Shown: positions 14,451 to 33,806 of the stretch, one piece after another
Numbering within the stretch: position 1 is the stretch's first letter
How the letters are laid out: every line of letters starts with the position of its first letter
NCBI GenBank assembly: GCA_029260595.1
Contig: JAJDCY010000023.1
Span: 62,001 to 126,000 of the forward strand
Reading direction: 5' to 3'
DNA: 64,000 nucleotides
Source: Phycisphaeraceae bacterium
GTDB lineage: Bacteria > Planctomycetota > Phycisphaerae > Phycisphaerales > Phycisphaeraceae
Position numbers and translations under genes: made by a program
Notes under the pieces: generated by a model
What the model was told of the DNA's origin: nothing
Seen by the model: only the letters and a program-made list of their open reading frames with translations
Databases searched by the model: none

Positions 14451-17400
14451 CTAGTGAGATGAGCATTGATCGGCGGCGCCTGTGCGGCGCCGCCTGGCCG
14501 CTCGCGAAAGTGCGACTGCAACAAGCGCGATCATCGTTCCCGGCTCAGGCGTTTGCGTCAGGTTCACGCCGATCTGGCCGGCGAGCCACTCAGCGGTACG
14601 GTCTGACTCCGCGACGGTATCCGGCCAAGCGAAGTTCTCGGCCAGCAGCGTCAGGTCATCCGCGTCCACATCGGTGTCTTGATCGAAGTTACCCAAGCGC
14701 CAGTCGCGCGGGTCAACAGCCGTCGCGAAGTTCGCCGCGAGCGCGACGAGGTCTTCGAGATTGATCACGCCGTCCAAGTTCGCGTCGCCGGTCGTCGCGA
14801 CGGCTTGCACGGTCAAATCATTGGCGTTGTAGAACAAGGTGAAACCGAGGCCGGGAACCTGCGGTGCGATCACGCTGACCGAATCGAACACAGTCCCGCC
14901 CGCGTTCGTGCCCCACGTCACGATCGTGAACTGATCGTACGGCGACACCGCGTCTTCGGCGCCGTCGATCAGGTGAATCTCAATTACGCCATCCAGCGCC
15001 ACATCGCCGGTCACCGCGACGTGGTCGTAGTCCTCGCCAGCGTCCGGTGCGGCCGTACTGCCGCCGGCCGGGTCGGCGATCTCGATCTGCATCGTCCCGC
15101 CCAGCGACTGGGTGTAGCTGCCGGTCACAGCCATCAACCCCGGCGACTGCCCCGGCGCAACTGTCCCGCCACCGTTTACCAGATCACCCATGAACGTCCC
15201 GACACTAAGCAACCCATCGGTAAAGTCGAACACACCGCCCGAGGCGTGGTCGATATTTGTGGCTTGGAGTGTGCCCCCGTTTAGCACAACCGTCCCGTCA
15301 GCGTCGATCCGCAGTAACGTCCCGGCCTCCAGCCCAAACCCGCCGGGCAGACTGATCGTGTCGCCGAGCAGCGCATCAACCGATCCGACAAACAAGTCCT
15401 GCGAGGTCAGCCCGAACGTCCCGCCCGTCCATTCCAGGAACTCATACGGCCCGGCATCAAAGTCCACGGTGGCGGTCCGAAACGCCCCAGCCGACAGGAC
15501 GATGGTCCCGTTGATTAGATAGGTCGAATCGATCTCAACCCGAGCGTTCTGATTCTGGACAAAGACCGCCTGCCCGCCCGGCCCGTCATTCGAATTGACC
15601 TCAAGGTAGCTCAACCCCGACACGTTGCCGCCGAACTCGACCGCGGAGTGCGCGTACACATCGCTGAAGACCAGCGAGATCTCGCTGATCACGGTAGTGT
15701 CCCCGCTTGCACCTTCAATCGTTACATATGAGTTCTGCAGCGACCCGCCGGTGAGCACACTGTCGCCCGAGAAATACATGTCCCCGCCCTCGAGCACCCC
15801 GCCGTCGTTGAGGATGGTCGAGTCCTCGGCCACGATCATAAAGGCCTGGATCGTCCCGCCCGAGTTCTGCACGGTCGCATCGGTGAGGAAGATCTCCCCG
15901 ACATCCATCACACCCGTGTTCACGACCGGCCGCAGGATGTCATACGTCGTGTCCACGGCGAGAATCATCGTCGCATCCGGATTGTTCGGGTCGGACACAT
16001 CCGGGACCTCGGTCCCCGCCGGCAGTGTTTCGCTCGTGTACACCGACTCGAACAGCGTCAGAAAGTCGCTGATCAGCGTCCCGTGGTTGATGATCTGCGG
16101 GATGTCGTCGCCCTGGATCTGCATGTCGATGGACGAGAAATAGATCGTGTGTCCGGCCTCGTTGGTCAGTGTGTCGTCATCACCCGATCCCTCAAGCAAG
16201 ACTTGCGACGAAAACTCAAGCGTGCCGGTCCCTGTAAAACGCACCGGCCCATCGAGGGTCAGTGTGCCGACCGCAACGTCGAGATACGCGTTGTTCTCGA
16301 TCGTCCCGGCAATGGACAGCGTGGTCACATCGAAGCCGCCGTCCCCCTCAAGCGTCACATCCTCGATCGCGGCCATGCCGGCGCTGTATGCGCTGTGAGG
16401 ATCGGAATCGCTAAATAGCGGGTTGATGAGCGTCCCGCCCTGCACCCGCACACCGACAAAATACGTATCCCCGCCCAAGCCGCCGATGGTCCCGCCCGTG
16501 TTGTCGATGTAGGCATCGACAATCGACAGCTCTCCGTCGGCCAGGTTGATCGCCCCGCGGTTAACCAAGCCGGGCAATGCCGCATTCATATCCGACGACG
16601 GGTCGATGACCAGCCCGGAGTCGGCGTCGACCTGCACCGTCCCGCGGTTGTCCAGCAGCAGCGAGTCCTGCCCGAGCTGATTCGGCACGCCACTATTATT
16701 CGTGACGGCGAGCGTGAACTGGTCGCCGATCGTCAGCCGGACGTCATCGGTCTCACCCTGAACATTGACGACATGGAGAAGGGCACTGCCGTTGCTGTCC
16801 AGCGTCAGGTCGTTGTCCAGGGTCAGGTCCAGAGACTCCAGGTACAGCGACCCGGTGTCGGTGATGTTCAGCGAGTTGCGCAGCACGACCTGTGAGAACG
16901 AATCGTACCCGCCCAGAATCGTGTCGGCGGTGAATGTGGCGTCTTCCAGCACCAGCGTGCCATAGACCTCGATGAGCTGCTCGCTGAACCCAAAATCTTG
17001 CGCCTCGAACCGCGTCCCGATGACCTGGTTGAAAAAGTCGTCACCCGGCATCCCGGCCCCGTCCCAGATCGAGTCGCCTTTAAGCGTCCCGCCGAGCAGC
17101 GTGACGTCGTAAAAAATCGCAAAGGTGACGTCAAAGACCCCGCCGGTGTTGTCGTAGACACCCGCGTGAAACTCGGTGTCCCCACCGCTGCGATCAAGGA
17201 TCACGCCCGCGTTTCTCACACCGGGCCCGCCCGAGTCCTTCACGGGGACGATCGAAACCTGGCCGCCATACCCGGTGTCTTCAATCTCGATCGTGCCCCG
17301 GTTGTCGATGACCAGGTCGTCGTTGCCGAGCGTCCCGACAACCAGATGCGCCTGCGGCCCGACCGTCAGCACCGTCTCGCCGCCCGGGCCGTCGCCGGTG

Positions 17401-20400
17401 AGGCTGCCGAGGTACCACTGCCCGTCTCCGATCAACGTCGTGTCGTCGTCAAGAAAAAACTCCCCTTCGACAAATCCGTTCGCGTTGCCGAATGCTCCGA
17501 TGCCGGACCCCGCTCGGTTCTCGATCGTGCCCGACAACCCGGTCTCACCCGCGAAGACCTCCGCGTCAGGCAGAAACACAACATCCTCAAGGCTGGTTGT
17601 ATGCAGATCGATGAACCCATCCAGGTCAGCGCCCACGATGTACGAACCCGATACCGAAAGGCTGGTCAAGTCCTGCTGCGTGGGCGAATACCCGCCGAGC
17701 CGGCTGCCAACGCTGACCAGCGTGCTGTTCTGGATCGTGATGTTGCCAACGAGGTCCGTCGTGTGGACAAAGTCGGCGTCGATGATGCTGATCTGCGCGT
17801 CGTAGGGATCGCCGGACAGCCCGTTGCCCGACAGCATGCTCGTCCCGGTGATCGTCAGGCGCGACATCTCATCGATGTGCAGCGTCCCGTCGTTGTGCAG
17901 GCGCACGCTGTCGAGCACCAGCTCGCCGCCGTTGCGCGCCTCAAGCAAACCACTTGAATCATTGAGGAAGAACCCATCCGCGAGCGTAATCTTGCTCGAC
18001 GCCCCGGCCATGTTCTGCGAATCCGCATCGATCACCCCGTGATTGGTGAACCCCGGTGCGTTGCGCTGCGCATCGCCCGTCGGGTCGATCGTCAGCCCGG
18101 GCCCGCGCGGCGTCGTCACCCGCCCGTGATTCGTCACCGTCAGCCGGTTGTTGCCCAGCAGCCCGGTCGCCTCGATCGTGTGGTCGGCCATCTGCGTCAG
18201 CGAATCACCGGCCCGCAGCCCGGCGATCACGTTGTCCAACACGTTCGTCGTCCGCAGCACACCCGTTCCGTCGAGCATCAACCCCGGCCCGCTAAGGAAC
18301 AGCCGGGAGGTGTTGCCGGCGCTGCCGTCGATCAAAATCTCGCCGTCGTTAACGATCCGACCCGAGTCCGTCCGCACCGCGAACCGCTCGACGGTCAAGC
18401 TGTTGCCCGTGGTCACCGTCAGCGAATCCGCCGCACCGATGTTGAGCTGATCCACCGTCACCACAATGTCCGCGTCAACCATCGCGTTGTTGTTGATGTG
18501 GATGTTGTACGCGTAGGCCGCCGAGTTGCTCGGCACGCCCGGCACCGGCGGCGCCTCCGTCCCGTCCGGCGGCAAGCCTGTCGCGTGAAACACAAACCCC
18601 CAGTTCGCCGCGTTGCTCCAGTCGCCGTTGCCACCCGCCCACGTCGCGTCAAGCACCGGCACATCCGGCGAACTGGTCACGAAAAACAACTCCCCGTCGT
18701 TAAGAAGCTGTTGCTGCGCCGACAGGATGATCCCGCCGGAGTCCACCGAAAAGTTAAACCACTCGGCGCCCTCCGGGATCAGCGTCGCGTACACCGAAAA
18801 CCCGTCCATCATCGCGACGTCCACATCGCCGACGCCCCCGAACAGCGGGTCGTTCGCAAACCCGCCCTCGAGCAGGGGCACAAAGTAGTTTTCTTCGCCC
18901 ACTCCCAGCATCGGGTCGTTTAGCGGCGACCCCTTCGCGCTGTAAAAAAGCAGCATGTCGTAGCCGAGGTAGTCGTCGTCGAACGGGCTCGGCCCCAGGT
19001 CGAACCGCGCCAGCCCGGCGAAAGCTTCCGCCGGCGTCGATTCCACCAGATTCATATTGTTCGCAAGGAAGATGTCGTTCGCATTATGCCCGGTAAACCC
19101 GAACGCCTCGGCGCCGCCGGGCAATCCCACGATGTTCGGCGTCGACGGCGCATCGGCGATCAGCGGGTTGATCGAAACCGTGCCCGCTCGGCTGGACGTG
19201 TCACTGCCGGTCAGCGAAGCCCCGCCGAGCGCCGCAGCCGCTGAAGAACCGACCGCCACGGTGTTGGCCCCCACGAGCAACTGCCCAGACGCACCATCAT
19301 CGAAACTCGCGCCCCCGTTACGGCCCAAGCCGCCGCTAACATCGATCGTGCCCGAACCGCCGACGGTCGAGCCGACCAGCTTCACCGTGCCGCCCGACCC
19401 ACCACCGCCGCCACCGCCATCACCACCCGATCCGCCGCGCCCCCCGGCGCTCCCATTCGCTCCGACTCCGCCAACACCCGCGAAAAACGGGTCCGGGATC
19501 GGCACGGGCGGCGGCGGAACAAACGGAACCGTCGTCACGCCGGGGATCGGCAGCACAGCCGCGACATTCGCCACAACATTAATCGGTTCACCCGCGATAC
19601 CAACCACGCCCAGGCGCCCCAACGAGCCGGTTTGACCATCACCCCCGCGCGCATGAGCTTCGCCCTGCAAATCAACCGATCCCTCAACAAGAAACTCGAC
19701 CGCCCCACCACCGGCGCCGCCAAGCCCGCCACCACCGCCGAGGCCACCGACGCCGCCATCACCCCCGTCGGCGCCCGGCCCGCCCGATCCGCCGAAGCTC
19801 GCAATATTGAATCCGGCGAAACCAAACGACTTGGCCCAGTTGCCCTGACCCGCGGCCCCACCACCACCACCCCCGCCGCCGCCACCACCGCTGCCACCCT
19901 GCCCGCCTCCACCGCCGCCGCCGCCGTTGCCGGCAACAAGTTCAAACGACGACCCACCGGAAAACTTGCCGCCGTGCCCGTTGCCGCCCTGCTCGCCCTC
20001 ATCCCCGTCGGAACCCAGCCCGCCAACGATCCCGTCGCCCCCGTCTTTGGTCGGCACACCGGGGAGAAAACTCGGCAACGGGCTCGGCCAATAGACACCG
20101 GGGCTGCCGCCTGGCCCGCCAAACCCGCCGAAGCCGCTGCTATTCCCATCGAACCCGCCCACGCCCCCGCTCGCCACAGCCGTGGGATTATTGAATCCCT
20201 TGCCGCCCTCGTTGCCGCCGGTCCCCCGATCGCCGACATCCCCGTCCGTGCCACTGGTCCCGCCGCGCCCAGGAAACGCCGGCACCGGTGGCGGCACCGC
20301 GCCCGGGATAAAAAAGATCATCGCCCCACCGCCGCGGACCCACTGCACACCGCCGCCGTCGCCCGGGTCGCCCGGCAACCCGCCTTGGCCAGCCCCTCCA

Positions 20401-20789
20401 CCGGTTCCCGACGCCCCACCCCCCGGCCCAGCCGTGGTATCGATCGCCGAAAAGTCAATCGTCGCAGTCGGCGGGACAACCAAATCGTTACCAATATGAA
20501 ACGACGCCGGCCGAACTCCCTCGCCGCGGAACACGTCGCCGGGATCGAGAATCAGGTCGCCACCTATATAGAAGTGGGCCACGCCGTTGAGGATCGACGC
20601 CGATGCGAGCTCGCCGCCGAAATTCCAATTCACCCCGTCCCGTTTGATCGTCAGGTGGCTGGTATTGACCACGTATTCGGCCGCGACGGCCGGCCCCGCC
20701 GCGACACATACGCACACCAACCACCCGAGGCAGGCCAAGCCGCGTCCACAAGACAAGCGTTCATTTCCCTTCAAACCGCCACTCCCCAT
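14451..20789 (-). CDS. Giant glycine-rich dockerin/PEP-CTERM surface protein
   Basis: 2112 residues. A signal peptide (LACLGWLVCVCVAAGPAVAA, cleavage near 37) leads into a glycine-rich domain (about 100-500) with many GGxGG runs, then beta-helix-like repeats rich in N, G, T and D. A TWAGGNGDWSNAANWGF element lies near 730. A type I dockerin (about 2001-2053) has two calcium loops, DANLDGVINLED and DQDTDVDADD. The tail is PEP at about 2081, a hydrophobic stretch and RRRR. PEP-CTERM proteins are cleaved and anchored by exosortase, which is not in this window. A TTG at codon 11 behind AGGGA is an alternative start. Confidence 0.88.
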   Translation of the reverse strand: MGSGGLKGNERLSCGRGLACLGWLVCVCVAAGPAVAAEYVVNTSHLTIKRDGVNWNFGGELASASILNGVAHFYIGGDLILDPGDVFRGEGVRPASFHIGNDLVVPPTATIDFSAIDTTAGPGGGASGTGGGAGQGGLPGDPGDGGGVQWVRGGGAMIFFIPGAVPPPVPAFPGRGGTSGTDGDVGDRGTGGNEGGKGFNNPTAVASGGVGGFDGNSSGFGGFGGPGGSPGVYWPSPLPSFLPGVPTKDGGDGIVGGLGSDGDEGEQGGNGHGGKFSGGSSFELVAGNGGGGGGGGQGGSGGGGGGGGGGGAAGQGNWAKSFGFAGFNIASFGGSGGPGADGGDGGVGGLGGGGGLGGAGGGAVEFLVEGSVDLQGEAHARGGDGQTGSLGRLGVVGIAGEPINVVANVAAVLPIPGVTTVPFVPPPPVPIPDPFFAGVGGVGANGSAGGRGGSGGDGGGGGGGSGGTVKLVGSTVGGSGTIDVSGGLGRNGGASFDDGASGQLLVGANTVAVGSSAAAALGGASLTGSDTSSRAGTVSINPLIADAPSTPNIVGLPGGAEAFGFTGHNANDIFLANNMNLVESTPAEAFAGLARFDLGPSPFDDDYLGYDMLLFYSAKGSPLNDPMLGVGEENYFVPLLEGGFANDPLFGGVGDVDVAMMDGFSVYATLIPEGAEWFNFSVDSGGIILSAQQQLLNDGELFFVTSSPDVPVLDATWAGGNGDWSNAANWGFVFHATGLPPDGTEAPPVPGVPSNSAAYAYNIHINNNAMVDADIVVTVDQLNIGAADSLTVTTGNSLTVERFAVRTDSGRIVNDGEILIDGSAGNTSRLFLSGPGLMLDGTGVLRTTNVLDNVIAGLRAGDSLTQMADHTIEATGLLGNNRLTVTNHGRVTTPRGPGLTIDPTGDAQRNAPGFTNHGVIDADSQNMAGASSKITLADGFFLNDSSGLLEARNGGELVLDSVRLHNDGTLHIDEMSRLTITGTSMLSGNGLSGDPYDAQISIIDADFVHTTDLVGNITIQNSTLVSVGSRLGGYSPTQQDLTSLSVSGSYIVGADLDGFIDLHTTSLEDVVFLPDAEVFAGETGLSGTIENRAGSGIGAFGNANGFVEGEFFLDDDTTLIGDGQWYLGSLTGDGPGGETVLTVGPQAHLVVGTLGNDDLVIDNRGTIEIEDTGYGGQVSIVPVKDSGGPGVRNAGVILDRSGGDTEFHAGVYDNTGGVFDVTFAIFYDVTLLGGTLKGDSIWDGAGMPGDDFFNQVIGTRFEAQDFGFSEQLIEVYGTLVLEDATFTADTILGGYDSFSQVVLRNSLNITDTGSLYLESLDLTLDNDLTLDSNGSALLHVVNVQGETDDVRLTIGDQFTLAVTNNSGVPNQLGQDSLLLDNRGTVQVDADSGLVIDPSSDMNAALPGLVNRGAINLADGELSIVDAYIDNTGGTIGGLGGDTYFVGVRVQGGTLINPLFSDSDPHSAYSAGMAAIEDVTLEGDGGFDVTTLSIAGTIENNAYLDVAVGTLTLDGPVRFTGTGTLEFSSQVLLEGSGDDDTLTNEAGHTIYFSSIDMQIQGDDIPQIINHGTLISDFLTLFESVYTSETLPAGTEVPDVSDPNNPDATMILAVDTTYDILRPVVNTGVMDVGEIFLTDATVQNSGGTIQAFMIVAEDSTILNDGGVLEGGDMYFSGDSVLTGGSLQNSYVTIEGASGDTTVISEISLVFSDVYAHSAVEFGGNVSGLSYLEVNSNDGPGGQAVFVQNQNARVEIDSTYLINGTIVLSAGAFRTATVDFDAGPYEFLEWTGGTFGLTSQDLFVGSVDALLGDTISLPGGFGLEAGTLLRIDADGTVVLNGGTLQATNIDHASGGVFDFTDGLLSVGTFMGDLVNGGGTVAPGQSPGLMAVTGSYTQSLGGTMQIEIADPAGGSTAAPDAGEDYDHVAVTGDVALDGVIEIHLIDGAEDAVSPYDQFTIVTWGTNAGGTVFDSVSVIAPQVPGLGFTLFYNANDLTVQAVATTGDANLDGVINLEDLVALAANFATAVDPRDWRLGNFDQDTDVDADDLTLLAENFAWPDTVAESDRTAEWLAGQIGVNLTQTPEPGTMIALVAVALSRAARRRRTGAADQCSSH

Positions 20790-24906: not shown

Positions 24907-24935
24907 GTGCCACTGACAAGTCCACTTGTCAGCGC
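24907..24935 (-). repeat. Palindromic repeat, copy A
   Basis: Read on the minus strand: CTGACAAGTGGACTTGTCAG followed by TGGCACCCG. It is an inverted repeat (TGACAAG/CTTGTCA) with a shared tail. It matches copies B (48584) and C (49543) in both palindrome and tail. It lies about 60 bases from the 3' end of the low-GC HTH-ATPase gene. Confidence 0.75.
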
Positions 24936-24995: not shown

Positions 24996-26027
24996 CTAGT
25001 TGGAAGTCAGTGCGCGGTTGACCATGTCCTGCACATCGTCGCTCGTGTTAATCGGCACAACATTGACACCAGGATGACGCCGTGCAAAGACACGGAAAAT
25101 CTCATCTGCGAATGCCTGACCGATGTGATCCACCCCATTGAAGTCAAGCATGACGTACTGAAAACGATCAAGGTTCGCCATCAATCGTTTGGCCTGGGAC
25201 CGAGACACCAGTTGTCCCGATCCACGCTGAAGCAGCCTCACAGCGACAACCGTTTTCGAGAATCCGTAGTCACCATCCTGTGAGGAATATTCATCGAAGA
25301 TTTCCTTGGTCGTTCGCTGCGTCGCGTTGCGCAACTGCATTTTGACAGCCGTGCCACTGTGTGGAGGAACATTCTCAAAAATGAAATCAAAACCCGACTC
25401 GATATGGTGACCAAAGATCACTCCACTCGAAACGATCTCATAGCGATTAAACATACGCGAGGTAAAGAAAATCCCTTCACCGGAGTGATTGTCCGGGTCG
25501 GTTGTGAGTTTGCCTTTTGCCAGTTCAAGGACGGCGTGCCTCTCGTCGTCCAGCCCAAGCGCCTGTCTGATCTTGGTGAAGATGCCGATTCCGTCGTCTC
25601 GGATCTGCATCGTGGTATCGATGGCGCTGATCTCGACGACGATCTGAACTTCGGTCCCTGCCGAGTGGTCGATGGCATTGTTAACCATCTCCGTGAATCC
25701 GTAGTGCCAAATTCGCCGTGCTTCGTCTGAACACTCGGTCAGCAGCGGCTCGACGCTCGTTCGCCAAAGTGAATCTTCTTCGAGGCCCTGGATCTCGACC
25801 GATAGGTTGTGGTTTGATCGCGTCGCCAGCTCATAAGTTCGATTCCTGCGATCACCCGAGGCTGCAAGATCACCGCGATCGACCAGAGCTTTGATGTGAC
25901 AGTTGATCGCTTGGCGGGTGATGCCAAATTTCTTGCCAGCGAATGCGGCTAGGTCCGTCCGGTGCTCACGGACAGACTCCAACAGAAATCGCCTGATCCT
26001 CTCGGTCCTCGCGGTGGTTCGAGTCAT
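24996..26027 (-). CDS. HTH - GHKL ATPase - STAS-like fusion regulator
   Basis: 343 residues from the ATG at 26027 (a TTG at 26033 is possible). Domains in order: a winged or simple HTH (about 1-70; KKFGITRQAINCHIKALVDR is the likely recognition helix), a GHKL/HATPase domain (about 95-210; N-box EMVNNAIDHS and G1 box DDGIGIF, then GEGIFFTSRM), and a C-terminal STAS-like (DUF4325-type) domain (about 250-343; YVMLDFNGVDHIGQAFADEI). It thus joins anti-sigma-kinase-like and anti-anti-sigma-like parts to DNA binding. Upstream 22-bp-spaced repeats suggest autoregulation. Codon use and GC (about 47% in a sampled line) are below the neighbours. Confidence 0.88.
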   Translation of the reverse strand: MTRTTARTERIRRFLLESVREHRTDLAAFAGKKFGITRQAINCHIKALVDRGDLAASGDRRNRTYELATRSNHNLSVEIQGLEEDSLWRTSVEPLLTECSDEARRIWHYGFTEMVNNAIDHSAGTEVQIVVEISAIDTTMQIRDDGIGIFTKIRQALGLDDERHAVLELAKGKLTTDPDNHSGEGIFFTSRMFNRYEIVSSGVIFGHHIESGFDFIFENVPPHSGTAVKMQLRNATQRTTKEIFDEYSSQDGDYGFSKTVVAVRLLQRGSGQLVSRSQAKRLMANLDRFQYVMLDFNGVDHIGQAFADEIFRVFARRHPGVNVVPINTSDDVQDMVNRALTSN

Positions 26028-26033
26028 GATCAA

Positions 26034-26092
26034 TCATTGTCAACAAGAAGGACACTCATTGTCAACATGAATAGGATTTATTGACAACAGAA
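26034..26092. promoter_or_regulatory. Three iterated operator-like repeats at 22-bp period
   Basis: TTGTCAACA occurs at 26037-26045 and 26059-26067, and TTGACAACA at 26081-26089. The starts are exactly 22 bases apart, about two helical turns, so all face the same side. On the coding strand of the downstream gene the first two contain TTGACA, a -35-like sequence, so protein binding would block transcription or initiation. The probable ligand is the neighbour's own HTH domain. No Shine-Dalgarno was seen before its ATG. Confidence 0.7.
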
Positions 26093-26355: not shown

Positions 26356-26392
26356 AAAAAAATAGGCCCGGTCGGCCGAAGCCAACCGAGCC
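26356..26392 (-). terminator. Intrinsic terminator of the small RNA
   Basis: On the minus strand a 12-bp stem GGCTCGGTTGGC / GCCGACCGGGCC with a TTCG tetraloop (all twelve positions pair, counting G-T) is followed by TA and seven Ts. This is a textbook Rho-independent terminator and too far (about 360 bases) from the end of the upstream regulator gene to be its obvious terminator. Confidence 0.85.
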
Positions 26393-26480
26393 CTTCCGGG
26401 GGCAATGGGGTGTTGAGGGATTCGCTCGGCTGCGAGCGAAATGCTTAAGGATAGTTTACCCTCACAAACTAGCTAGCAAG
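26356..26480 (-). ncRNA. Putative orphan small RNA
   Basis: About 125 bases on the minus strand, between a promoter and an intrinsic terminator and without an open frame. It contains a strong hairpin TTCGCTCG-CAGC-CGAGCGAA (26421-26440) closed by an outer stem GAGGG (26459-26463)/CCCTC (26415-26419), then an unpaired C-rich stretch, then the terminator. It does not match tmRNA, RNase P, SRP or 6S RNA by eye. It lies between a response regulator and the HTH-ATPase gene. Confidence 0.6.
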
Positions 26481-26752: not shown

Positions 26753-27325
26753 TCACTCGTGGTCGTCGTCGTGACCGCCATTCCCGCCATTGGCCAGGTG
26801 ACGGCGGATCGTGCTGGTGGACACGCCCAACTCCTTGGCGGCCATATCGAGGTTCCCGCTGTGGCCGGCGACCGCGCCGCGGATCGCCGTGTCCTTGATC
26901 TCGGCCAGCGTGCGGTTGCTCTCACCGCTTAGCCGGCGAAGGTGCTCTTCCATCGCGACGGTGATGAGACTGCCGAGCATCGATAGGCTGTCGGTCTTGC
27001 GCCACCACAGCGCGAGCCGGCAACTCCGCGAGGCCTGGAGGTACCCGTGGGGGTCTGAATCGGCTGAAATCACGATGAAAACCGCCTGAGGCCAGTGGCG
27101 GCTCAGCGGCTCGATCCACTTGAGCCCGTCGACCTCGCCGATGTGCCAATCGATCAGGATCACGCTGACGTCCGGGTTCTGCGGGGCGTACTCGTCGGCA
27201 TCGGCGGGGCTGGAGAAGCCCTCCGGCTGCACGCCGAGTACCTCGAACACGTGACGGGCAAGAATCCGACGGATCGCCGGATCATCGTCGATGATGACGC
27301 AATTGGCTTTTGTAGTGTCAGGCAC
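26753..27325 (-). CDS. Response regulator with a Fis-type HTH
   Basis: 190 residues. The receiver domain (about 8-125) has the acidic pair DDD and the phosphorylatable aspartate in VILIDWHIGEVDG. The conserved lysine is in WWRKTDS without the usual following proline, so the output face may be altered. The C-terminal part is a Fis-like HTH (GHSGNLDMAAKELGVSTSTI), as in RegA/ActR-type two-component regulators. A proline-poor GNGGHDDDHE tail closes it. The GTG start is behind GGAGG. No partner kinase is adjacent. Confidence 0.88.
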   Translation of the reverse strand: MPDTTKANCVIIDDDPAIRRILARHVFEVLGVQPEGFSSPADADEYAPQNPDVSVILIDWHIGEVDGLKWIEPLSRHWPQAVFIVISADSDPHGYLQASRSCRLALWWRKTDSLSMLGSLITVAMEEHLRRLSGESNRTLAEIKDTAIRGAVAGHSGNLDMAAKELGVSTSTIRRHLANGGNGGHDDDHE

Positions 27326-30551: not shown

Positions 30552-33500
30552 ATGGTCGATCAGAAGTGGTCCGCTGCGCTGGGCGCAGCCGTGCTGATAT
30601 GTCTTGCCGGCCACGCCAATGCGATTGACTTCCATTGGACCGGCGGCGATGCGACGAACAACTTCCACGCGCCGTTGAACTGGTCGCCGGGGTCCACGTC
30701 CACGTCCTGGCCGGACGGGACCAATGACGCCGCCCTGTTCGACACGCTCAATGCGACGTACAGCGTGGACTTCGACAACTCCCACGCCAACAAACGATTC
30801 GAGGTGCGCGTCGGCAACCCGACCATCTTCCTCGAAACCGGCAGTACCCCGCATCATTACACCCTCCACACCACGACCGAAGCCGCCGCCATCGTCAGCA
30901 CCTTCCCCGGCGCGCTGTTCACCACCACCCTCACGATCGACGGCACCAACCACGTCACGCTCGGCCAATCGTCCGTCAGCACGATCCAGGTCCTGCAGAT
31001 CGCGGTCGGCGACTCGACCACGAAAGGGATCCTGAGCCTGAGCAACGTCAACTGGGGCAGCACGGCTGCGTCCTTCGTCGGGCTCAACGGCAACGGCGTG
31101 CTGAACATCGCCTCCAACGCCTCGATGTCCTCACACTCGGGGGTGCTCGGCTTCACCGGGCAGTCCATCGGGACGGCCGACATCTCCGGGCAATGGGTCA
31201 ACACCGTCGGCGATCTGGTCGTCGGCAAGTCGGGCAGGGGCACGCTGAACATCATCGGTGCCTCGGGCTTCGTACACACCTCGACCGGCCACATCAGTAT
31301 TGCCGAGATGCCCGGGTCTATCGGGACGGTCACCCTCAATACTGACGGGCGGCTTGAATCCGACGGCTCGCTCTACGTTGGTGGCGGGCCGTCCGGGCCG
31401 GGCGGCAGCGGGTCGCTTATCTCCACCGGGTTCATCCTCGGTGAAGAGATCACCGTGGGTGACGACCTGGTGATCTACGGCAACGGCAGCGTCGACCTCG
31501 ATCTTGGAAATCGGATGTACGTTGAGAACGACACCATCATCCACCCGGGCGGCTCACTCACACTCAGGCGTGGCGATTTTGTAACCGAGACCCTCACCGG
31601 CCCGGCCAACTCGGTCACCTGGACTGAGGACGAACTGTTTGTTCAGAACGAAGTGTCCATCGACGACAACGCCCCGCTGGGCGGCAACGTCTCGGTCTCG
31701 TCGTTCTTCAACCAGCAACTCTCCACCAACCTGCTCAAGGTCGGCCCCACGGCCGGCGGCACACTCAGCCTCAGCGGCACGGCCGGCGGCGGCATCGTTG
31801 AGATCGGTTCGCTCATCCCCGGGACGGACCCCGCCACCGTCACCCTCGTCAACGCCGCCGCCCTGCTCGAGACGGTCGCGGTCGATGTCCGCGGCGCCAC
31901 CCAGGCCACCCTCAACGTGCAGGGCGGCGCCGAGGTGGACCACCTGTTCTCGTCGCGGTTCGCGGGGCTGCCCGGGACCAACGCGGTGGTCAACATCACC
32001 AACCCGGGCACGCTGTGGGACGGGCGCGCCGCGCTCTACATCGGCGGCGACCTCAACACCCCAGGCGGCAACGCCACCGTCACGGTCTCTGACAGCGCAA
32101 CCGTGCAGGTTAACGACTTTCTCAAGCTGTGGCCCGGCGCGAACATGACGGTCGACAACGCCACGCTCACCATCGACAACCTGGACGTCGGCGGGACGCT
32201 CACACTCACCGACGCGACGTTCAACATTAACGCCGCGACTGACATCGACGTCTCGGGCACGCTCACGCTGGGTACCACCAACACGTTCCAGATCCCCAAC
32301 CTGACGATCACTGACGGCGGGCACGTCGATTTCACCAACCGGTTCGCGACCGTCGACGCGCTCGGTAGCGGCAACATCGACCGCCTTTTCCTCCAGGGCG
32401 GCAAACTCTCCGCGCCAAGGGTCGAGTTCGTTTCAAGCACGTTCGTTGGCTACGGGCACCTCGACGCCGTCGTCATCGCGCATAAAGGCGTTTTAGCCAC
32501 CGGCGACCTGATCATGGGCCGCCCCACTGTAGTCAACGCGGTCCAGATCTCCGAATCCGTCGCCTTCACCGTCGGCGCTCACCACGTCACGCTACTGAAA
32601 ACAGGCTTCTGGGATATGCACTCGTTCACACGCATCTTGGGCGGTACGCTCTCGGTCGCGACCGGCGTGTCGATGAGATCGGGGCTGTTCTTCTCCGGCT
32701 TCGGCGCGATCGACGGGCGGATGTTCATCGACGGCGGGACCGTGATCGAGGCCGACGGCGGCGACCTGGCGATCGGCGACGCGGCGTCACTGGCCGGCTT
32801 CCACTCCGACGGCGAGCTGTACACCGGCCCGAACACGGTCACGATCCACGACGCGAACGAAGCCGTGCTCGGCACACTGACTCAGCTCGGTGATGGGGTC
32901 ACGCCCGGCACGCTGGCCGCGCCCAACGGGTTGCTCGTCGAGTTCGGCAAGAACATCGCCGGGCACGGGACGGTCGACACCCCCAACGACCCGGGCAGTC
33001 CGCTGACCAATCTGGGCACGATCGCCGGCGACTCGCCCGGCGAACCCATCACGCTCAACGGTTACGTCAAGGGCATCGGGACGTTCGCCAACATCGTCGT
33101 CAACGGCACATTCGCCCCCGGGCTGTCGCCGGGTGTTGTCGCGGTAGAGACGAGCCTGGTTGTCTCGCCCACGGGCACGCTACAGATCGAACTGGCCGGG
33201 TCAACCACGAGCTCCGAACACGACCAGGTCAACGTCACCGGCGATGTCACGCTAGAGGGCACCCTCGACGTTGATCTGCTGTTGAGCTACGACCCGGACC
33301 ACGGTGAGTCCTTTACCGTCCTGACATGGACCGGCGCACGCAACGGTACCTTCGACGCTTTCGACGGGCTTGACCTTTCGACCGACAACACCAAATCGCT
33401 CGCGGCCGTCTTTGACGACGTGCTCGGCGAACTCACACTGACGGCCGCGATCCCCGGCGACGCCAACCTCGATGGTGCGGTCACCCTTGAGGACCTGGTC

Positions 33501-33806
33501 CGGCTCGCGGCCTCATTCGACACATCGCCGGGCCTGGGAAGCTGGCCCCTAGGCGACTTCGACCACAACGGCATCGTCAACGCCAACGACCTGAACCTCA
33601 TGGCCGGCAACTTCACCGGCCCGTCCGACACCCTCACCGCGATCGCCACTTCGCTCGGCGTCACGATCACCCAGACCCCGGAGCCGGGCACCGTCGCCAC
33701 TGTCGGCGTGGGGTGCTTATTGGCCACCCGACGCCGAAAAAAGCGCCAGAAGCCGTGCTTAGGGCCGCGCAACGTTCCTTCGCGGAATGACGCCTACGTC
33801 CAATAG
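30552..33806 (+). CDS. Dockerin/PEP-CTERM surface protein with beta-helix repeats
   Basis: 1084 residues. The signal peptide (SAALGAAVLICLAGHANA, cleavage near 24) is followed by HWTGGDATNNFHAPLNWSPG and long autotransporter-like repeats (T, G, N and D-rich, with LNVQGGAEVD-type units) likely to form a beta-solenoid. The dockerin spans about 969-1020 (GDANLDGAVTLEDLVRLAAS and DHNGIVNANDLN). PEP at about 1043, a hydrophobic segment and TRRRKKR close it. The start is MVDQKW behind AAGGAGAAGG. It lies between a C-terminal remnant and a copy of its own leader. Confidence 0.9.
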   Translation: MVDQKWSAALGAAVLICLAGHANAIDFHWTGGDATNNFHAPLNWSPGSTSTSWPDGTNDAALFDTLNATYSVDFDNSHANKRFEVRVGNPTIFLETGSTPHHYTLHTTTEAAAIVSTFPGALFTTTLTIDGTNHVTLGQSSVSTIQVLQIAVGDSTTKGILSLSNVNWGSTAASFVGLNGNGVLNIASNASMSSHSGVLGFTGQSIGTADISGQWVNTVGDLVVGKSGRGTLNIIGASGFVHTSTGHISIAEMPGSIGTVTLNTDGRLESDGSLYVGGGPSGPGGSGSLISTGFILGEEITVGDDLVIYGNGSVDLDLGNRMYVENDTIIHPGGSLTLRRGDFVTETLTGPANSVTWTEDELFVQNEVSIDDNAPLGGNVSVSSFFNQQLSTNLLKVGPTAGGTLSLSGTAGGGIVEIGSLIPGTDPATVTLVNAAALLETVAVDVRGATQATLNVQGGAEVDHLFSSRFAGLPGTNAVVNITNPGTLWDGRAALYIGGDLNTPGGNATVTVSDSATVQVNDFLKLWPGANMTVDNATLTIDNLDVGGTLTLTDATFNINAATDIDVSGTLTLGTTNTFQIPNLTITDGGHVDFTNRFATVDALGSGNIDRLFLQGGKLSAPRVEFVSSTFVGYGHLDAVVIAHKGVLATGDLIMGRPTVVNAVQISESVAFTVGAHHVTLLKTGFWDMHSFTRILGGTLSVATGVSMRSGLFFSGFGAIDGRMFIDGGTVIEADGGDLAIGDAASLAGFHSDGELYTGPNTVTIHDANEAVLGTLTQLGDGVTPGTLAAPNGLLVEFGKNIAGHGTVDTPNDPGSPLTNLGTIAGDSPGEPITLNGYVKGIGTFANIVVNGTFAPGLSPGVVAVETSLVVSPTGTLQIELAGSTTSSEHDQVNVTGDVTLEGTLDVDLLLSYDPDHGESFTVLTWTGARNGTFDAFDGLDLSTDNTKSLAAVFDDVLGELTLTAAIPGDANLDGAVTLEDLVRLAASFDTSPGLGSWPLGDFDHNGIVNANDLNLMAGNFTGPSDTLTAIATSLGVTITQTPEPGTVATVGVGCLLATRRRKKRQKPCLGPRNVPSRNDAYVQ

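Follow-up and report, generated by a model that had tools for sequence, protein, structure and literature searches.

The window analyzed here, a stretch of 64 kb from a Phycisphaeraceae bacterium, carries on its minus strand a gene for a protein of 343 amino acids. The coding sequence (24996–26027, stop codon included) is matched by full-length orthologues at 44–56% identity. Its reading frame starts with the ATG at 26027, and a TTG at 26033 is an alternative possible start. The gene is separated from an upstream response-regulator ORF (26753–27325) by a terminator-like hairpin with a T run, which the window scan placed at 26364–26393 on the minus strand. A perfect hairpin without a T run (TGACAAGT-GG-ACTTGTCA, about 24913–24934) is found approximately 60 bp past the stop codon; its arms are similar to the operator core described below. 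Elsewhere in the window, 14451–20789 and 30552–33806 encode two very large repetitive surface-type proteins, at whose ends a PEP-CTERM-like tail accompanies a dockerin-like stretch.

The architecture of the protein was derived from motifs, profile searches and an AlphaFold model, for which the same alignment of 68 orthologues was used as for the motif analysis. The model (mean pLDDT 85.5, pTM 0.79) shows a winged helix-turn-helix (wHTH) at residues 6–80 (25788–26012, minus strand), a GHKL (Bergerat) ATPase domain at residues 84–233 (25329–25778, minus strand) and an alternating beta/alpha domain at residues 258–341 (25005–25256, minus strand). Residues 7–81, approximately, match ArsR/MarR-type winged helices in the family profile search, and residues 38–51 form the recognition helix in the model (25875–25916, minus strand). 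The GHKL domain combines the Bergerat fold with the N-box, G1 and G2/lid motifs of the superfamily: the N box (E113, N116, N117, H121) and G1 (D144xGxG148, with D144, G146 and G148) are unchanged in the alignment, and the lid/G2 stretch at residues 171–188 consists of KGKxTTD (171–177) and HxGxGIFF (181–188). Its best fold match in the PDB is the anti-sigma kinase SpoIIAB (E 4e-6). The C-terminal domain was recognized by Pfam as DUF4325 (PF14213, "STAS-like domain of unknown function") at residues 278–333 with E 1e-14 and 54 bits versus a curated cut-off of 23. Folded on its own, it resembles STAS domains, RsbS among them, at moderate match scores. PDB sequence searches with the protein returned GHKL and winged-helix relatives only, and PADLOC gave no useful match for it. 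The initial annotation had read HTH, GHKL and STAS-like parts in a single frame from the DNA sequence, and both this fusion and the STAS-like nature of the C-terminal region are supported by the profiles, the model and the fold matches. Of the two profile matches expected, DUF4325 was clear, whereas HATPase_c_2, like HATPase_c, scored just below the Pfam cut-off.

The STAS fold is similar to that of SpoIIAA-type antagonists, but their phosphorylatable serine is absent. Judged by fold position and motif, S58 of SpoIIAA and S54 of CapS correspond to G303 or Q304, which lie in an IGQAF motif of the window protein. In the family alignment G303 is present in 78/78 sequences, while Ser or Thr occurs at residue 304 in 0/78 and at residue 305 in 7/78. 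Other DUF4325 proteins carry TSAF or TQSF at this place. Since the acceptor position reads Gly-Gln-Ala (G303-Q304-A305), a SpoIIAA-like phospho-switch is unsupported, and the earlier proposal that all roles of SpoIIAB and SpoIIAA are fused in this protein does not hold in that sense.

A repeat array upstream of the gene and its orthologues

Directly upstream of the gene, TTGWCAACA elements start at exactly 26037, 26059 and 26081 of the forward strand, as first noticed in the initial annotation. Read in the direction of the gene, which the minus strand encodes, the sites are GTTGTCAAT, GTTGACAAT and GTTGACAAT, starting at -61, -39 and -17 bp relative to the ATG with a spacing of 22/22 bp. From the pattern and the orthologue arrays we predict three operator sites on the minus strand: site 1 at 26080–26088, containing a -35-like TTGTCA (26087–26082), site 2 at 26058–26066, containing a -10-like GACAAT (26063–26058), and site 3 at 26036–26044, 17 to 9 bp 5' of the ATG. 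These are the only exact TTGWCAACA matches in the 64 kb (0.60 expected; at least three in 2/100 shuffles) and the sole triple of 9-mers at 21/22 spacing within the window. On the evidence of the window alone the repeats are only modestly unlikely; with the orthologues included they are far beyond chance.

A scan of the genome collection yielded 77 relatives of the window protein from about ten phyla, among them Planctomycetota, Pseudomonadota, Myxococcota, Nitrospirota, Acidobacteriota, Thermodesulfobacteriota, Cyanobacteriota and Rhodothermota. At least two GTTG(A/T)CAAT sites at 21/22-bp spacing were found in 67 and three in 52 of the 74 orthologues with enough upstream DNA, related sequences being counted as independent in these statistics. 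Dinucleotide shuffles led to an expectation of 0.09 orthologues with at least two sites and 0 with three, and control windows from the same loci contained at least two sites in 2/4512 and three in 0/4512 cases. The array is thus retained in most orthologues, the absence of which from them had been named as grounds for rejecting the link. The consensus reads GGTTGACAAT; its middle can be A or T, a variation seen mainly at site 3. Steps between sites were 21 bp in 62 and 22 bp in 73 cases, and the commonest layout has three sites with a 21-bp step followed by a 22-bp step directly upstream of the gene. The originally suggested row, in which neighboring sites are separated by two helical turns, is therefore retained, whereas an exact 22-bp spacing does not hold throughout. 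The array is absent from one orthologue with an HTH (L076), and a three-copy search without preset motif gave no convincing triple in L079, L080 and the Bacillota-like relatives L129–L136.

We also assessed where the tandem pattern occurs genome-wide by pattern searches. In the window's own genome it is found at this gene only. Among this genome and 60 relatives (61 in total) it occurred in three, always at this gene, while the reversed-pattern control gave 0. In the 50 genomes with orthologue loci we counted 61 tandem matches in 40 genomes, and 60 of these matches are located in the promoter of the orthologue itself; where the strict pattern gave no match, in ten genomes, variant sites are mostly present. 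The only two available orthologues lacking the wHTH, L075 and L097 (G041, behind purH), have no sites. L093 (G045, likewise behind purH and from the same family as the L097 genome) has kept the wHTH and two recognizable sites, and its gene is split into two frames; the L097 and L093 loci apparently represent decay. In the diverged homologues L120, L123, L077 and L078, which have a changed recognition helix, a motif-free search detected triples at 22/22 spacing with a core of about TTTACRWT. In L120 these are TCTTTACGTTT, AATTTACAATT and ACTTTACGTTT (p 0.005). This joint change of recognition helix and motif is the strongest sign at the sequence level that the array is recognized by the HTH of the protein itself. 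Since the sites sit at the gene's own promoter, vanish with the HTH and change with the recognition helix, the array is very probably a private operator of the protein, and the assumption that these are the gene's own sites and go with its HTH agrees with both the orthologue and the whole-genome searches.

The array overlaps with promoter-like sequences. The window scan gave two promoter-like pairs, TTGTCA-18-GACAAT from sites 1 and 2 and TTGACA-18-GACAAT from sites 2 and 3. The -10-like hexamer of site 2, TACAAT in several orthologues, is located 17–18 bp behind the -35-like hexamer of site 1. Counted over 49 arrays, which include related sequences without weighting for relatedness, the final T (position 8) is kept in 32, 47 and 27 and the A at position 4 in 48, 49 and 33 at sites 1, 2 and 3, respectively, although site 1 of the window copy itself reads TTGTCA. 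The added constraint at sites 1 and 2 thus coincides with what a -35 and a -10 element would need, and site 3 seems free to be TTGTCAA. Since site 1 overlaps the -35 and site 2 the -10 element, autorepression is predicted.

Genomic setting and mobility

In the protein tree the phyla are intermixed and the three Planctomycetota rows fall at three places, a distribution to be read with caution because of the bin assignments. One locus (L041, 2815–4137) has one attC-like element on both sides, 1219 bp apart, and is an integron cassette holding array and gene only; the mobile unit there is therefore array plus gene. Judged by such elements, L041 is a clear cassette and a few other loci, such as L031, are likely ones. 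The L031 contig, binned as Planctomycetota, shows an attC-like element similar to that of L041 with a ParE-like toxin nearby. No attC was recognized at the window copy, and integron cassettes were rejected as the usual location of the gene, since the orthologues taken together show no enrichment of attC core motifs.

Relatives are encoded on 22 IMG/VR contigs, in one case directly behind a phage integrase, and none were found on plasmids or annotated phages at the sensitivity used. On one contig (L120:1132–3864) a distant relative of the gene comes immediately after a phage integrase that a transposase-like ORF seems to interrupt, and at another locus (L032) a CRISPR-like array with the repeat form GTTTCAATCCTCGCCCATCCCGAAGGACGGGCGCTAC lies directly behind the gene.

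A conserved partner gene was not found, as no family recurs beyond a few of the 111 neighbors, and the nearest neighbors are mostly housekeeping genes differing between loci. A defense island as the general setting was rejected likewise, since few of these 111 neighbors have PADLOC matches. In three Competibacteraceae loci (L017, L024 and L029) gene and array have kdpA on one side and a P-type ATPase gene reading as kdpB on the other, a placement by which the remaining kdp operon would stand behind the self-regulated promoter. The three loci look like one local insertion.

Proposed switch and alternative explanations

The private operator, the intact ATP-site motifs and the fold classes are supported by computation. 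On this basis we consider it rather probable that the gene is a one-gene, self-targeting regulatory switch travelling with its own operator. The wHTH would recognize GTTG(A/T)CAAT elements two helical turns apart on one face of the DNA. The predicted sites span the gene's own promoter, the -35 falling in site 1, the -10 in site 2 and the expected start point just before site 3. Several copies of the protein could align on this row and block RNA polymerase, which would amount to autorepression. ATP binding by the GHKL domain together with the state of the STAS-like domain might alter the contacts and release the row, and a signal would then quickly raise the protein's own level. Since almost no other sites are present in the genomes, the output is probably an action of the GHKL-STAS part on another protein or nucleic acid. 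It is our guess, by analogy with CapK (see below), that the signal may be single-stranded DNA or DNA damage and the role one in stress or phage defense. A fuller version is tentative: a mobile stress or phage-defense switch in which ATP and a nucleic-acid signal dissolve the operator row without a phospho-acceptor, so that what was an autorepressor becomes a free GHKL effector. The array could also serve activation instead of repression, or another regulator.

Two alternatives start from CapK and CapS, which control adjacent immune operons (Chambers et al., EMBO J 2026, PMC13373217). CapK has the order HTH-STAS-GHKL and CapS is a STAS-wHTH protein; single-stranded DNA activates CapK, upon which CapS is phosphorylated and released from DNA (PMC13373217). 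The window protein unites the same three kinds of parts as this pair, and its nearest fold, SpoIIAB, is itself a STAS kinase. It might therefore be a phospho-switch of the same type in one chain, its GHKL domain phosphorylating the STAS domain or other Ser/Thr residues in cis or trans and so freeing the HTH from DNA. Alternative acceptors are conceivable in S275, S277 and the S/T before the recognition helix, but with Ser or Thr at 303/304 in 0/78 and at 305 in 7/78 sequences, a place where TSAF or TQSF is found in other DUF4325 proteins, we regard this as unlikely.

Alternatively, the protein could be a CapK-like sensor kinase acting in trans on an unlinked STAS protein, with the HTH merely tuning its own expression. 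CapK offers a precedent, as its STAS domain is no substrate and its HTH has no assigned role (PMC13373217), and a private operator array fits simple self-tuning. However, no substrate gene adjoins, and a search for DUF4325 gave a single such protein in the window's own genome; we would give this explanation a rather small chance.

It is very improbable that a strong promoter, or binding by some other widespread regulator, accounts for the repeats while the HTH acts elsewhere. TTGACA and (T/G)ACAAT within the sites are indeed promoter-like, but three equal copies at 21/22 bp are not required by plain promoters. The array moreover accompanies the gene from phylum to phylum, does not occur at other places in the genomes, is lost with the HTH and changes in motif with the recognition helix. 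Chance repeats beside an ordinary DUF4325 protein are next to inconceivable with 67/74 orthologues versus 0.09 expected, even if three matches also arise in 2/100 shuffles of the window.

Comparison with known regulatory systems

The proposed self-targeting switch resembles SpoIIAB/SpoIIAA and RsbW/RsbV in that its GHKL fold is nearest to SpoIIAB and its C-terminal domain resembles STAS domains such as RsbS. Those are, in contrast, separate proteins that do not bind DNA and whose target is a sigma factor, controlled via a phosphorylated serine. SspH and the HATPase-only regulators of Streptomyces (PMC9137472) are likewise GHKL regulators outside two-component systems, but SspH is a single-domain protein without HTH or STAS (PMC9137472), unlike the window protein. 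Four proteins from the same class (L109, L111, L112, L116) carry DUF4325 behind GHKL on a single chain as the window protein does, so that this fusion alone is not unique. These four and the stand-alone DUF4325 proteins have no winged HTH and other N-terminal parts, and the acceptor Ser/Thr is mostly kept.

The system had been proposed as undescribed. We found no description of the one-chain architecture or its operator in the literature searched, which left out most subscription papers and preprints and in which DUF4325 is mentioned by two unrelated papers; CapK/CapS (PMC13373217) is, however, built of the same parts. Together with VapKSC it is the closest described system, a kinship that rests on the described architecture. 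CapK/CapS and the window family both combine HTH, STAS and SpoIIAB-like GHKL parts in a DNA-binding autoregulatory module, and the signal of the window family is possibly alike. In both, the operator overlaps a -10 element, and the way in which CapS dimers neighbor each other on DNA points to binding in a row (PMC13373217). The differences are that CapK and CapS are two proteins whereas the window family has one chain in the order wHTH-GHKL-STAS, that their operator has TTAA half-sites instead of a private GTTGACAAT array, that they have a conserved acceptor serine where the window family has no Ser/Thr, and that they precede immune operons while the window family has no partner operon. The window gene accordingly lacks three marks of the pair, namely two adjacent genes, an acceptor Ser/Thr and a position before an immune operon. 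By analogy the window family may work like the CapK/CapS module, but it is not a CapK/CapS pair.

A seemingly undescribed operator signature is thus fixed in a family of about ten phyla, with integron copies and relatives on prophage-like contigs. Because the signature is fixed, one short DNA motif and one profile suffice to find members, and the site-by-site constraint of the promoter gives direct predictions. Beside the two-protein CapK/CapS system, the family would offer a single-protein model for the control of DNA binding by GHKL ATP binding.
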